This document shows positions 7,709-43,509 of a stretch of 64,000 nucleotides of DNA, in pieces. The translations under genes and the position numbers were made by a program. The stretch is from Anaeromicropila populeti (GTDB lineage Bacteria > Bacillota > Clostridia > Lachnospirales > Lachnospiraceae), in the NCBI RefSeq assembly GCF_900112775.1, contig NZ_FOYZ01000004.1:244449-308448 (forward strand), given 5' to 3'. Below the pieces are notes generated by a model. It was not told the origin of the DNA, did not search any database, and saw nothing but the letters and a program-made list of their open reading frames with translations. Within the stretch, counting starts at the first letter, position 1, and every line of letters starts with the position of its first letter.

Positions 7709-8000
7709 AAAAAAAGCCTAAGCTAATAATTAGCTTAGGGCGAAATATTCATCCGTGTTACCACCTAAATTCAGAGAAAAACTCTGCACTCATTCAGTAC
7801 GGAAAGCGTAAAGGCAATCGATACTGTTTTCCTGATAACGGTGGAAAACTCCGTTGAAGTCTACTAAAGATAAAATCTTGTTCAGTTCACTGCTCAAAGG
7901 CTACTTCCATATTACCATTGTAAAGATTCTCACCAACCATCTTTTCTCTGAAACGCAGGAAATATGTACTCCTCCTTGTCAATGCATTTTATTATATATT
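7709..8000 (-). promoter_or_regulatory. T-box riboswitch leader of ilvBN
   Basis: Read on the minus strand, the leader has a long stem I region with AGAGA and GGTTGGTGAGAATC. An ACGG...CCGTTA stem III follows, then the T-box sequence AGGTGGTAACACGG (about 7756-7768). It ends with the terminator CCCTAAGCTAATTATTAGC... with T7 (7712-7740). T-box RNAs read the charging of a cognate tRNA and antiterminate when it is uncharged. The specifier codon was not fixed by eye. ATC (isoleucine, 7869-7871) just before TTTAGTAGAC is one candidate. Confidence 0.92.
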
Positions 8001-38515: not shown

Positions 38516-39835
38516 ATGGATCAAAAGTATTATCTTTTGTTGGCATTGATGTTTAGTGTTGAACCAGTAATATGGATTCGTGTCATGTCATACTTGTACC
38601 GCCCGAAATATAAGAATCGTTTATATTATGTAGCAGCAATTGCTGGCATGGATATAATAGCTGTCTTAAAATATCTTATAGGATTTTGCAAAGGAGATAC
38701 TATTTTAGAAATTTTAGGAATGGTTATAATAATAGTATATTTATTGATAACTACGGTATTACTATTTGACGCAAAAATTATTCAGGCATTTGTTAGTATT
38801 GGTATTATTTGTGTTTTATACGTATTATCAGATCTTTTTTCAATGGTCATAATGACAGGTATATTGCATGTTACAATTATTGATTTGAATAATAATGGAA
38901 TGAACTATTTAATTGGAACATTTATAGCTAAAGTCAGCACATTAATATGTTGTGAAATCATTATTGCAAATAGGAAAAATATACTTAGAAAAGAAGCAAT
39001 GTGCAGTAAAGAATTAATACCTGTCATAATTGGAAATTTGGCATTAAGTGCACCTAGTTTATATGTATTTACTAATATAGAGTTGTTAAAAAACCAAGTA
39101 TATTTGTTGTTTATAGTTGCGATGACACAAATAGCATTGTTGCTGATTACAACATTATATATAGTGATTTTATTTGAAAAGCAATCAAAAAGAGAGATGG
39201 AGCATAGGTTCTACATACAGCAGATGGAAAAGGAATTGGAATTAAATAAAAGTATGATTGAAGTAACGGAAAAACTGCGCAGTTTGAAGCATGATGTTTG
39301 TTCTCACTTTGTGCTGATAAAAACGTTATTGAATGATGGCTGCTATGATGAGGTAAAACAATATGTAAATGATTTGTATAAAGATATCGAGATTGCTGAA
39401 GAAATTGCTGTGCTTACTAATAAAAATGTTTCTATTATTTTAAATCAAAAGCAGAAACTGGCGAAACAAAAATCAATTAAATTTGATTTTGTAATTATGA
39501 TAAGTGATTTTGTAATAAGTGATATTGAAATCTGCTCTCTTTTATCTAATATTTTAAATAATGCGATTGAAGCTGCGGAACAAGTTGAGCTTGATAAGCG
39601 TTATATAAGTCTATTAATTCGGCCTGAGAAAAAAGGATACACAATTGAGTGCGAAAATTCTTTAATAAAAAAACCAATACAAAAGATGGATAAATTTATT
39701 ACAACAAAGCAAGATAAAAGAACACATGGGGTAGGGATTGCCATAATGAAAAATATAGTTAAATCTGTTAATGGTAGATTAAGAATAGATTATGATGACA
39801 ACCATTATATCATCACTATATTTATACCAACATAA
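38516..39835 (+). CDS. GHKL sensor histidine kinase, AgrC-like
   Basis: The protein has 439 residues. Six or seven hydrophobic helices fill residues 1-220. The H-box SLKHDVCSHF carries H259. The GHKL domain has LLSNILNNAIEAAEQ (N-box, about 338-348) and HGVGIAIMKNIVKS (G-box, about 405). It is thirteen bases upstream of a LytTR regulator, and a small AgrD-like precursor gene follows. This gives kinase, regulator and candidate signal in one cluster, so its ligand is probably the cyclic peptide encoded at 40639 (inference). Confidence 0.9.
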   Translation: MDQKYYLLLALMFSVEPVIWIRVMSYLYRPKYKNRLYYVAAIAGMDIIAVLKYLIGFCKGDTILEILGMVIIIVYLLITTVLLFDAKIIQAFVSIGIICVLYVLSDLFSMVIMTGILHVTIIDLNNNGMNYLIGTFIAKVSTLICCEIIIANRKNILRKEAMCSKELIPVIIGNLALSAPSLYVFTNIELLKNQVYLLFIVAMTQIALLLITTLYIVILFEKQSKREMEHRFYIQQMEKELELNKSMIEVTEKLRSLKHDVCSHFVLIKTLLNDGCYDEVKQYVNDLYKDIEIAEEIAVLTNKNVSIILNQKQKLAKQKSIKFDFVIMISDFVISDIEICSLLSNILNNAIEAAEQVELDKRYISLLIRPEKKGYTIECENSLIKKPIQKMDKFITTKQDKRTHGVGIAIMKNIVKSVNGRLRIDYDDNHYIITIFIPT

Positions 39836-39848
39836 TTAGGAGGAAAGT

Positions 39849-40571
39849 ATGGGCTATAATGTGTTAATATGTGATGATGACAGGCTTAGTTTGAAAATTA
39901 ACCAGACATATGTAGAGGAACTTAGTAAAAAGTTTAAAATTTCCACATGTTTATATTGTTTTAATGAGATTGATGATACCTATACAGAAACAATTAATAA
40001 AGTAAAAATGGATCTTATTCTACTGGATATTGATTTAAAGGAAATAAACGGTTTGGTGTTGGCAAAGGATCTGTTAAAAAAGAATCCATGGAGTGTGCTG
40101 ATTTTTATAACAGGATACACGGAATATGCATTAGATGCGTTTGATCTGTTAGCCTTTGGGTATCTGGCAAAACCAATAGATTCTAGTAAATTTGAAAAGC
40201 TTTTTGCAAAAGCAATTGTGCAGATGCAGAGTGTTAAGTACAAAAGGGTGGATTCCTTAATTAGTTTTACGATACGAAAAAAGCAATTTACCCTCAGACA
40301 AACAGATATTATATACATAGAAAAGGTTGGACAAAAAATAAAAATAGTAACAATGCAGGAAGAATATGAAATTTATGATACAGTTACGTCATTAGAGAAT
40401 AAACTGGGTTATTTATTCTTACGAATTAGCAGCAGCACAATTGTTAACATGCAAGAGATTGCCATTTTAAGCAGTAGACAAGCTACATTGAAAACGGGAG
40501 AGAATTTAATTGTAGGAAGGACGTACTCCAAAAGGGCAAAATCTCTTTATTCAAAGTTCCCAAAAAGCTAA
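39849..40571 (+). CDS. LytTR response regulator, AgrA-like
   Basis: The protein has 240 residues. The receiver domain has the D9/D10 acidic pocket, D60 as phospho-acceptor (LILLDIDL) and the lysine in YLAKPID. The LytTR DNA-binding domain covers about 145-238, with IYIEKVGQKIKIV and FLRISSSTIVNMQEI. AGGAGG precedes the ATG. It should be phosphorylated by the kinase directly upstream and may control agrD and the structured region that follows. No clear LytTR direct repeat was fixed by eye. Confidence 0.9.
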   Translation: MGYNVLICDDDRLSLKINQTYVEELSKKFKISTCLYCFNEIDDTYTETINKVKMDLILLDIDLKEINGLVLAKDLLKKNPWSVLIFITGYTEYALDAFDLLAFGYLAKPIDSSKFEKLFAKAIVQMQSVKYKRVDSLISFTIRKKQFTLRQTDIIYIEKVGQKIKIVTMQEEYEIYDTVTSLENKLGYLFLRISSSTIVNMQEIAILSSRQATLKTGENLIVGRTYSKRAKSLYSKFPKS

Positions 40572-40638
40572 ATATACATAAAAACAACAAAAATGTCAAA
40601 TCAAACATTACAACAGGGATTTGAAGGGTGGTGCTAAC

Positions 40639-40776
40639 ATGGCTATGCAGAAAAAGGTGAGTAAAGTAATTAGTAAAATGGCAGAACAAGTGATTAATCA
40701 AAATGTGAATTCGTCTTGTTTTTTTTTCTTTTATCAGCCAAAGCTTCCGAATGGAATAATAAAGGCTAAGAAATAG
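40639..40776 (+). CDS. agrD: AgrD-like cyclic-lactone autoinducer precursor peptide
   Basis: This 45-residue ORF is preceded by GGGTGG. It has an amphipathic N-terminal helix (residues 1-23, KKVSKVISKMAEQV), then SSC27FFFF, then the hallmark tail YQPKLPNGIIKAKK. Clostridial AgrD proteins share C-x4-[YH]-Q-P-x-x-P. By comparison with C. perfringens AgrD (CLWFT before HQPEEP), the predicted signal is a five-residue Cys27-Phe31 thiolactone. It lies 67 bases after the LytTR gene. The processing protease AgrB is not encoded in this window, so maturation must depend on a gene elsewhere. Confidence 0.85.
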   Translation: MAMQKKVSKVISKMAEQVINQNVNSSCFFFFYQPKLPNGIIKAKK

Positions 40777-40812
40777 AATACAGCTCTTGGGAAAATTGAC
40801 ATTTTAATTTTA

Positions 40813-40853
40813 TAGAAAGGGATAGAGAGGATAGGATACGCTATTCCTTTCTA
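40813..40853 (+). terminator. Strong hairpin after agrD
   Basis: A 13-bp stem TAGAAAGGGATAG / CTATTCCTTTCTA (one G-U) has a 15-base loop. No immediate U run follows, so it may be an RNA-stabilising 3' end or a weak terminator. Confidence 0.6.
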
Positions 40854-40990
40854 CAGATAGGTTTGTTCTTTGTTTTAATCTAAAAATGCATTTTAACATG
40901 GAAAAGACGCAGATTATAACATATTGAATAGAATAATAACGATTCTTATGTAAATTCATTAAGATACAATGTAATGTAGTATATCTATCT

Positions 40991-40999
40991 TGATATAAT
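40991..40999 (+). promoter_or_regulatory. Possible extended -10 promoter of the structured RNA
   Basis: TGA-TATAAT matches an extended -10 (TGnTATAAT). No good -35 lies 17 bp upstream (GTAATG). The predicted start is near 41006. Confidence 0.4.
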
Positions 41000-41005
41000 A
41001 AAATG

Positions 41006-41426
41006 TATGAACTAAAATAATAGTGTACTAGTGACAAGCTGTTCTCATAATGATATGGGTGATACCAACCCAATGTTGTGGTTGAATGGCTGATTAAATG
41101 ATAAGAACAAACTTGAATGATGAAAGAACGCATAACATACTAATAATAATTCTAACTAATAAAGGAAAAGGTAATTAATCCCTGGATTAGAGCTCAAGAA
41201 CAACATGGATTGAACTTGAAATAACTGATAAGAGCGATAGAATTGCTTGTCATTAGAAAGTTAATTTCCTAATTTTACTTTACTGAGCGAGACTAGAAAG
41301 TTGTATCTTACTTATTGTAGTGTAATACCCTAAAAGGGCCCCCTAAACCCTTTAATAAGTAATACGGCAAGGCTTGTTATCATGAACTTAAAGAAAAGAC
41401 TGTGAAGGCAATTTCACAGTCTTTTC
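41006..41426 (+). ncRNA. Candidate structured non-coding RNA between agrD and fbp
   Basis: The 750-base gap after agrD has no credible ORF on either strand but contains several good stems. CAAG/CTTG plus TGTTCT/AGAACA (41035-41045 with 41104-41115) encloses TGGGT/ACCCA. An 11-bp bulged hairpin lies at 41226-41252. TTACTTATT/AATAAGTAA (41308-41316 with 41354-41362) encloses AAAGGG/CCCTTT. A possible end-closing helix pairs 41031-41039 with 41372-41380. A perfect terminator ends it. I do not recognise 6S, tmRNA, RNase P or SRP signatures. It may instead be a long 3' UTR of the agr transcript. Confidence 0.45.
41394..41426 (+). terminator. Strong Rho-independent terminator
   Basis: A 13-bp perfect stem AAAAGACTGTGAA / TTCACAGTCTTTT (41394-41406, 41413-41425). 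It lies 100 bases before fbp and must end a transcript from upstream, since no gene lies within 600 bases 5' of it. Confidence 0.92.
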
Positions 41427-41526
41427 GACTGTAATGCTCCAATCTATATGTAGACGAAAATCCAATAAGTGTGATAAAATTATTTGTGTTATGTGAATTC
41501 AAAACGGAAAGAAAGGCACATTTAAT

Positions 41527-43509
41527 ATGAATAAGGAAAAGTATTTACGCTTATTGTCATTAAAATATCCTAATATACGTGCAGCTACAAGTGAAATAAT
41601 TAATTTGAATGCTATCTTAAGACTTCCTAAAGGAACAGAGTATTTTTTTAGTGATATTCATGGTGAATATGAATCCTTTTTAGACTTGCTGAAAAGTGCG
41701 TCTGGAACAATACGTGAAAAAGTTAAACTGCTATTTGAAAATGTTATGACAGAAAAGGAGCAGGAAGAATTTGCAAAGTTAGTCTATTATCCAAGAGAAG
41801 TATTAGGGCAAATGGAGTTCTTAAAAACAGAGTATGGGTATTGGGAAAGAATTACGATATTTAGACTTGTTTTGCTATGCAGAGAAACATCTTCAAAATA
41901 TACCCGATCTAAAGTAAGGAAAAAGCTTCCGATTGATTATGCATATGCAATTGAAGAATTGTTAAATGTGAATCATGAGGATCAGGATAAAAAAGTTTAT
42001 TATAATGAAATTATACATTCAGTCATTGATTCTGGAGCAGGAAAGGATTTCATAATAGCACTGTGCAAGCTGGTTCAACAATTGTGTGTGGACAAACTTC
42101 ATATTATTGGTGATATTTTTGATCGTGGACCCAGGGCAGATATTATTATGAATGAACTAATGACTTTTCCGGACATAGACATACAGTGGGGAAATCATGA
42201 CATTTCGTGGATGGGAGCTGTCTGTGGTAATGAGGCATGCATTGCAAATGTGCTTAGAATTGCACTAAGTTATAATAACTATGATCTTTTAGAGGATGGC
42301 TATGGAATTAATCTCCGTGCATTATCTATATTTGCTTCCGAGACGTATCACTCAGATCCTTGTAGTGCTTTTTATCCGCGATTATTAGATGAGAATAAAT
42401 ATGATAATGTAGATACCAGTCTTACTGCGAAAATGCATAAGGCAATTACAGTGATTCAACTTAAACTGGAAGGACAGTTGATTAAACGTCATCCTGAGTA
42501 TAATATGGATGAAAGAGATTGTCTGAATAAAGTTGACAGCAAAATGAGAAGGGTTATAGTGGAAGGGATAGAATATCCAATGATAGATATGAACTTTCCT
42601 ACTATATGCTGGGAACATCCACTTGAATTATCGGATGGAGAAAAGGAACTAATCAATATTCTTCGAATATCCTTTGTTCATAGTGAATTGCTTAACAGAC
42701 ATGTAAAGTTTTTATATTCCCATGGAAGTATGTACAAATGTGTGAACTCTAATTTACTATATCATGGCTGTATTCCTATGGAAGAGGACGGGAGTTTTAC
42801 TAAGGTACAGTTTAAAGAAGAGATATATTCTGGGAAACCTCTATTTGATTTTTTCAACCAGCAGGCTCAAAATGCTTATTTTCTTCCAGAAAATGATAGT
42901 GACAAGCAGGATGCGGTTGATATAATGTGGTATTTATGGTGTGGAAAAAATTCTCCCCTATTTGGGAAGAGTAAACTGGCGGTATTTGAAAAATATTTTA
43001 TAGCAGACAACAGTGCAGCGGTGGAACAATATAACCCTTATTATCGGTTAAGTAATGGAGCACGTGTATGCACAAAAATATTAGAGGAATTTCAGTTAGA
43101 TATAGATAAGTCTCATATTATTAATGGGCATGTACCAGTAAAGATAAAGGAAGGAGAGCATCCTGTAAAGGCAGAAGGAAAGCTGTATGTAATTGATGGA
43201 GGAATTTCAAAGGCATATCAATCTAAGACAGGAATTGCGGGATATACTTTGATTTTTACTTCGCATCATCTAGCTCTTGCAGAACACAAAATTCCTTCTA
43301 AGGGCCTGTCTAACTTATTAGGTACAAAAAATGATTTCCAGCCTGTGTCCCCGGCTATTTATATTACAGAAAAGATGCCAAGGAGAATTATGGTTGCAGA
43401 CACTGATGTTGGAAGAGAGCTTGCAGAGAGGATAGAGGATTTAAAAATGTTGGTGACAGCGTATAAGGAAGGTGAGATAAGAGAATCAGAAATAAGAGGG
43501 TATGATTAA
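41527..43509 (+). CDS. fbp: Class III fructose-1,6-bisphosphatase
   Basis: The protein has 660 residues. This gluconeogenic enzyme of Firmicutes is unrelated to class I FBPases. Metallophosphatase motifs are FSDIHGEYE (about 42), GDIFDRGP (about 197), WGNHD (about 224) and the late INGHVPV histidine. The start MNKEKYLRLLSLKYPNI is typical, with GAAAGAAAGG as ribosome site. In Bacillus the enzyme is activated by phosphoenolpyruvate. It is preceded by a terminator, so it has its own promoter in the AT-rich 41430-41510 stretch. Confidence 0.95.
   Translation: MNKEKYLRLLSLKYPNIRAATSEIINLNAILRLPKGTEYFFSDIHGEYESFLDLLKSASGTIREKVKLLFENVMTEKEQEEFAKLVYYPREVLGQMEFLKTEYGYWERITIFRLVLLCRETSSKYTRSKVRKKLPIDYAYAIEELLNVNHEDQDKKVYYNEIIHSVIDSGAGKDFIIALCKLVQQLCVDKLHIIGDIFDRGPRADIIMNELMTFPDIDIQWGNHDISWMGAVCGNEACIANVLRIALSYNNYDLLEDGYGINLRALSIFASETYHSDPCSAFYPRLLDENKYDNVDTSLTAKMHKAITVIQLKLEGQLIKRHPEYNMDERDCLNKVDSKMRRVIVEGIEYPMIDMNFPTICWEHPLELSDGEKELINILRISFVHSELLNRHVKFLYSHGSMYKCVNSNLLYHGCIPMEEDGSFTKVQFKEEIYSGKPLFDFFNQQAQNAYFLPENDSDKQDAVDIMWYLWCGKNSPLFGKSKLAVFEKYFIADNSAAVEQYNPYYRLSNGARVCTKILEEFQLDIDKSHIINGHVPVKIKEGEHPVKAEGKLYVIDGGISKAYQSKTGIAGYTLIFTSHHLALAEHKIPSKGLSNLLGTKNDFQPVSPAIYITEKMPRRIMVADTDVGRELAERIEDLKMLVTAYKEGEIRESEIRGYD

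Follow-up and report, generated by a model that had tools for sequence, protein, structure and literature searches.

What becomes of the long geneless stretch that follows an agr operon: does it belong to the agr transcript, does it give a regulatory RNA of its own, or is it plain spacer? The question is raised by the stretch of DNA analysed here (the window, 64,000 nucleotides of Anaeromicropila populeti), which lies on contig 19 of a 4.22 Mb genome and in which 750 bases, 40777-41526, separate agrD from the next gene, fbp.

The spacer between agrD and fbp is non-coding

The genes that frame the spacer are the following:

38516-39835, + strand: AgrC-like sensor kinase (GHKL domain PF14501, E 8.9e-21)
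39849-40571, + strand: AgrA-like LytTR response regulator (PF04397 and PF00072)
40639-40776, + strand: AgrD-like cyclic lactone autoinducer precursor of 45 amino acids (TIGR04223, 46.2 bits, cut-off 19)
41527-43509, + strand: fbp, class III fructose-1,6-bisphosphatase, the next gene (PF06874, E 9.9e-277)

A first-pass annotation had described the spacer as geneless and had placed a structured RNA of some 420 bases in its 3′ part (41006-41426, hereafter the candidate). Inspection of the coding content bore out the absence of genes. The longest complete + strand ORF had 26 amino acids, the best Shine-Dalgarno match found for + strand ORFs of the spacer was 3/6, and no such ORF of at least 8 amino acids had a match of 5/6. 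Two other origins were considered and rejected. A decayed protein gene was sought in two ORFs, one of 107 amino acids on the - strand (taken entire and as its first 48 residues) and one of 40 amino acids, and Pfam had nothing for either at E ≤ 1. A repeated mobile element does not fit a spacer found once in the genome, where the next match spans 22 bases (E 0.03).

The first terminator-like hairpin after agrD is a distant one

Two inverted repeats of the spacer bear on the end of the agr transcript:

40813-40853, + strand: hairpin 3′ of agrD whose two arms of 13 bases are 92% complementary; no U tract
41393-41426, + strand: end hairpin, 14/14 pairs, probable transcript end (d = -8.4 on the + strand)

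Hairpins were scored by a d value of the d'Aubenton-Carafa type. The hairpin at 41393-41426 had been described as a terminator closing the stretch and as one of the strongest in the window. The hairpin is present, but as a + strand terminator it is mediocre: d was -8.4 on the + strand and 5.0 on the - strand, where it came 10th of the 11 window scores with d > 0, and therefore the end hairpin is not among the strongest terminators of the window. A separate terminator scan called it on the - strand only, and the U tract that follows it on the + strand is short (TTTTCGACTG). Its + strand d resembles that of the hairpins after agrD at other loci of the genome (L054, L055, L060 and L062, -7.4 to -8.7).

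The hairpin closer to agrD, at 40813-40853, was unreported by the terminator scans. No hairpin passing as a terminator occurs before the end hairpin, and the first passing one lies at +645 from the agrD of the window. The genome has 12 further AgrD loci, and eight of them showed a terminator-like hairpin 18-64 bases after agrD; three of the 12 had no passing hairpin and one had its first at +475, and therefore the window is not unique. It is mainly this distance, +645 versus 18-64 at those eight loci, that makes us read the segment as the long end of an agr transcript.

Because the first passing hairpin comes late, the simplest reading is a long agr 3′ end or a small RNA released from it. We propose, with a probability of about 0.45, that the agrC-agrA-agrD transcription unit extends through the segment as its non-coding 3′ part, which is possibly the source of a small RNA. 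RNA polymerase would most likely pass agrD without stopping and end at hairpin 41393-41426, so that each agr transcript would carry about 0.65 kb of untranslated RNA; processing, or a promoter near 40990-41018, may in addition yield a shorter RNA of about 0.4 kb. Where the transcript begins and ends, whether the agr regulator governs it and what it may do to targets are inferences. The proposal gains from the lack of a + strand ORF above 26 amino acids, and it is weakened by the short U tract and the negative d on the + strand.

The end hairpin carries most of the folding signal

Folding of the candidate with its end hairpin (41006-41430) gave z = -3.4, and none of 100 shuffled sequences folded as well. 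When the end hairpin was excluded (41022-41392), z was -0.8 and 28 of 150 shuffles were as good, and therefore it is the end hairpin that carries most of the candidate's signal. The entire spacer before the end hairpin (40777-41392) reached z -2.3 on the + strand (2/150 shuffles) and -2.0 on the - strand (5/150). Two parts with borders chosen by us behaved differently: 41024-41262 gave z -2.0 on the + strand and -3.3 on the - strand, which argues against a clear + strand preference there, and 41296-41372 gave -2.2 on the + strand and -0.3 on the - strand. The predicted elements within the candidate were:

41028-41039/41245-41256, + strand: strongest helix, 12 pairs (-20.6 kcal/mol; mean pair probability 0.43)
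41031-41040/41371-41380, + strand: end-closing helix, competing partner of the same 5′ arm (-15.4 kcal/mol; mean pair probability 0.39)
41300-41368, + strand: two-step hairpin with arms 41300-41317 and 41353-41368 (14/16 pairs above 0.9; z -2.2)
41339-41343, + strand: CCCCC in the loop of the two-step hairpin (unpaired probability 0.98-1.0)

The strongest helix, which was absent from the earlier reading of the sequence, was equalled in 6 of 400 shuffles (2% in a separate set of 200). A long-range helix of equal strength was found in none of 59 other intergenic stretches (at least 250 bases, trimmed to 369), many of which were shorter than the candidate. The 5′ arm 41028-41040 has two predicted partners, between which the ensemble is split (0.43 for 41245-41256 versus 0.39 for 41371-41380), and it may pair with either of them. 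Two helices of -15 kcal/mol or better that share 8 arm bases did not occur in 400 shuffles, in a test devised post hoc.

The helices proposed by the first-pass annotation fared unevenly under this model. Its possible end-closing helix was recovered as 41031-41040/41371-41380, and its helix 41308-41316/41354-41362 reappeared within a longer one, 41300-41306/41362-41368 plus 41309-41317/41353-41361. This two-step hairpin is predicted to be the most certain element after the end hairpin, the innermost pair of its two steps having probabilities of 0.51 and 0.66. The two-part stem 41035-41045/41104-41115 was not borne out, with a probability of 0 for the outer CAAG/CUUG and of 0.35-0.37 for the inner GUUCU/AGAAC, nor was the bulged hairpin 41226-41252, in which the outer four pairs had 0.42-0.45 and the inner ones dropped (counted without the bulge).

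These data bear on an alternative, namely that the spacer is unconstrained, the helices and the C-run being chance features of an AT-rich stretch in which only the end hairpin is functional. It would explain the z of -0.8 without that hairpin, the number of helices of -11 kcal/mol or better (5 in the candidate versus 6.2 in shuffles), the presence of CCCCC in 13% of dinucleotide shuffles (2% of mononucleotide shuffles) and the lack of detected conservation in limited searches. It accounts poorly for a helix at the 1.5-2% level, for a second helix that shares its arm and for the z of -2.3 of the entire spacer, and we regard it as unlikely. For the long agr 3′ UTR, the spacer z, the one helix at that level and the better folding of the C-rich hairpin on the + strand (-2.2 versus -0.3) count in favour; the z of -0.8 of the candidate without its end hairpin, the nearly equal structure of the - strand of the spacer and the better folding of 41024-41262 on the - strand count against.

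A predicted open C-run has no clear target at agrD

In the predicted fold, the stable hairpin would keep its CCCCC loop open. If the RNA is active, the open C-run could pair with G-rich ribosome-binding sites and block translation, as other C-rich RNAs of Gram-positive bacteria do. Among 459 translation starts, the agrD ribosome site ranked 5th for pairing with the loop. As a specific target it was rejected, since in controls with 1000 shuffles each, 15.5% of the loops and 6% of the targets did equally well; the full-length fold gave 0.27 expected pairs between the C-rich loop and the agrD ribosome site.

An enrichment of C-rich-loop hairpins near agr was likewise rejected. Nine were counted in 27.8 kb of agr intergenic sequence, the C-run of the window itself among them and with 2 kb shared between L058 and L059, versus 12 in 67.7 kb of control sequence (p = 0.23). 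Both the missing enrichment and the agrD-site pairing at shuffle level weaken the proposal of a long agr 3′ UTR.

Long hairpins of 12-15 pairs with CUCCC-type loops were also seen in control loci (L137:14080, L138:6431 and L139:14621), so that loops of this kind may be common in the genome as a whole.

Relatives were sought in the family, in agr and fbp loci and in Rfam

BLASTN against 60 relatives and 396 other family genomes (overlapping sets), in which the genus was represented by the source genome alone (1/1), returned the sequence itself plus short matches only. With the best two candidates per genome scored in the 396 family genomes, 102 gave matches at E up to 0.1, the best at E 1.8e-5 over 35 bases. 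These cover at most about 50 of 451 bases and were taken collectively as noise. Homologues were not found in phages, plasmids or the 12 other agr loci of the genome, nor was one exact pattern found in viral contigs.

A covariance model of the C-rich hairpin (R1), built from a single sequence, matched only itself in its own genome. In the 396 other family genomes, where the filters were stricter and no more than 12 candidates were scored in each, it gave two weak matches (E 0.10 and 0.62); 17 stretches from agr loci gave another two (E 0.89 and 2). Conservation in relatives, which the first-pass annotation had put forward as a check along with an Rfam scan, was thus not found in these limited searches of family genomes, and the lack of a detected homologue weakens the reading as a long agr 3′ UTR. 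The Rfam scan matched no family at the spacer at gathering score; below threshold, at E up to 10, the region 40560-41540 gave six matches to unrelated families (best E 0.81). The sole gathering-score match of the window was a T-box leader at 7733-7991 on the - strand (129.8 bits). Among the papers that the literature searches brought up, judged by titles and abstract openings, none dealt with an RNA beside agr in Lachnospiraceae. With no homologue detected in limited searches, a modest structure and a suggestive context, the segment is a fair candidate, weakly supported.

The position of the end hairpin, which stops 100 bases 5′ of fbp on the same strand, would also suit a 5′ leader of fbp with attenuation at 41393-41426. 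Forty-three Fbp loci in named records were found by six exact 8-residue patterns, so that very near records were possibly missed, and the nearest Fbp among them was 52% identical. In 36 fbp loci counted out of 38 supplied, the upstream gap had a median of 162.5 bases, and in none of the 10 loci with gaps above 250 bases did a terminator-like hairpin lie 400 bases or less from fbp. The R1 model, run on 38 of the 43 loci, matched none of them at E up to 1, no Rfam leader or riboswitch appeared at gathering score, and a promoter-like site (41451-41480, 9/12) follows the end hairpin. We hold an fbp leader to be very improbable.

Upstream sites and the other agr loci of the genome

A start within the agr transcript could be provided by one site:

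40990-41018, + strand: promoter-like TTGATA-17-TAAAAT, 10/12 match, RNA start near 41026

Promoter-like sites occur in the region at chance number (17 found versus 16.9 expected). The search for a regulator box upstream gave nothing convincing: a single direct repeat of 9/10 at spacings of 19-25 was found, and none before agrC. The likeness of the two upstream regions was equalled by 4.7% of 300 shuffles.

The genome holds 13 AgrD-like peptide genes above the TIGR04223 cut-off, and the search over it gave the following loci:

L042-L051, L052 and L053, whole genome: AgrD-like/AgrB loci

AgrB had only two matches, on contigs 18 and 31, neither being the contig of the window. There are at least five AgrC-like kinases at E < 1e-40 (best 5 of 36 candidates scored), and ORFs of kinase and then regulator size precede agrD at 8 of the 12 other loci, as judged by size and position. 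Among those 5 of 36 candidates scored, the kinase of L060 (contig C22) is most similar to that of the window (41%). This locus has a second + strand terminator, with d = 18.1 at +401, after a non-coding stretch; a C-rich hairpin exposing GCCCCC (L060:8770-8880) precedes it and no gene of at least 80 amino acids lies in front. By eye, the C-rich hairpins of the window and L060 (CUUAUU/AAUAAG stems) and their terminators look alike. The likeness was rejected as a sign of common descent, since 39 of 200 shuffles reached the score of the local alignment and R1 misses L060; the two resemble each other in layout and not in sequence beyond chance.

The best of 15 stretches aligned to the window was L064 (9/200 shuffles), by a match at about 40924-40972, 5′ of the candidate. 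A C-rich element lies at L064:5320-5520 (C17:10319-10519), C26:128734-128885 and C38:77161-77354. It has exactly these three genome matches at E up to 0.001, each about 1 kb or less from an agr gene, and by eye precedes a small helix-turn-helix-like gene. Over 152 bases the copies on C17 and C26 share 97% identity, and the AgrD peptides adjoining them clearly differ. L055:6322-6412 and L054:8968-9048 are related to each other; each contains a hairpin GCGATACT...TATCGC and a CUCCC loop. A model built from both (R2) recovered nothing else in the genome, and their distances from an agrD are 1.1 and 3.2 kb. Both C-rich elements are thus confined to the neighbourhood of agr loci.

Could the candidate instead be a separate small RNA, some 400 bases long and started from a promoter of its own at 40990-41018, that the AgrA-like regulator induces and that acts like RNAIII through its C-loop on target mRNAs? 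The promoter-like site just 5′ of the strongest helix, the hairpin at the far end and the predicted open CCCCC loop would fit, as would L060 with its second terminator and C-rich hairpin; PMC10602386 adds that agr-type regulons generally include such an RNA. Against it stand the chance number of promoter-like sites, the lack of a convincing regulator box, an upstream likeness within reach of shuffling, and an alignment with L060 at chance level together with the failure of the covariance model there. Such an RNA seems to us unlikely.

A more far-reaching reading, to which we give quite a small chance, is an effector RNA of agr that arose in the lineage of this genome independently of RNAIII. 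Cut from the agr transcript or started inside it, this RNA would expose an anti-Shine-Dalgarno C-run and switch between two long-range folds that compete for its 5′ arm; the genome has 13 agrD genes, and at least one other locus, L060, might have a downstream RNA of its own. If the candidate is real, agr quorum sensing via regulatory RNA would extend to a genome as rich in AgrD-like peptides as this one, with 13, and the effector RNA would form part of the transcript of the agr genes. Otherwise the segment would be an ordinary long spacer, with the lesson that its structured look came from the energy of the end hairpin alone.

Comparison with known systems

RNAIII of Staphylococcus aureus, the effector of agr, adjoins agr and is transcribed divergently from the agr operon; it also encodes a short peptide, which in S. 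aureus is delta-hemolysin. RF00503, the Rfam family of RNAIII, appeared neither in the gathering scan of the window nor among the matches at E up to 10 over 40560-41540. In PMC2837412, RNAIII is numbered up to position 516, and its C-rich hairpin loops bind ribosome-binding sites. The candidate is similar in that it adjoins agr, has a similar length and is predicted to expose one C-rich loop, and the comparison would rest on this place beside agr and this one C-run. It differs in that, as described, it lies downstream of agr on the same strand, whereas RNAIII is divergent, and in that it has no peptide gene with a ribosome site.

Also comparable are the RNAs of VirR/agr-type regulons in Clostridia, for which we draw on PMC10602386: VR-RNA of C. 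perfringens and SpoZ of Clostridioides difficile, of about 530-560 bases. Upstream of SpoZ is a direct repeat required by its regulator, with key G residues at -51 and -72, whereas no direct repeat of that sort was recognised upstream of the candidate. The likeness is that of an RNA of a few hundred bases tied to a VirR/agr-type regulon, and the sequences were compared with the candidate through Rfam only.

The same source and PMC3868564 give precedents that favour a long agr 3′ UTR. In the latter, icaR mRNA of S. aureus has a long 3′ UTR whose UCCCC motif acts on its own mRNA, the pairing having been proven by mutation, whereas the predicted pairing of the candidate with the agrD site is no better than that of shuffled controls. 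What the two would share is an extended untranslated 3′ end whose C-run might contact the ribosome site of its own mRNA.
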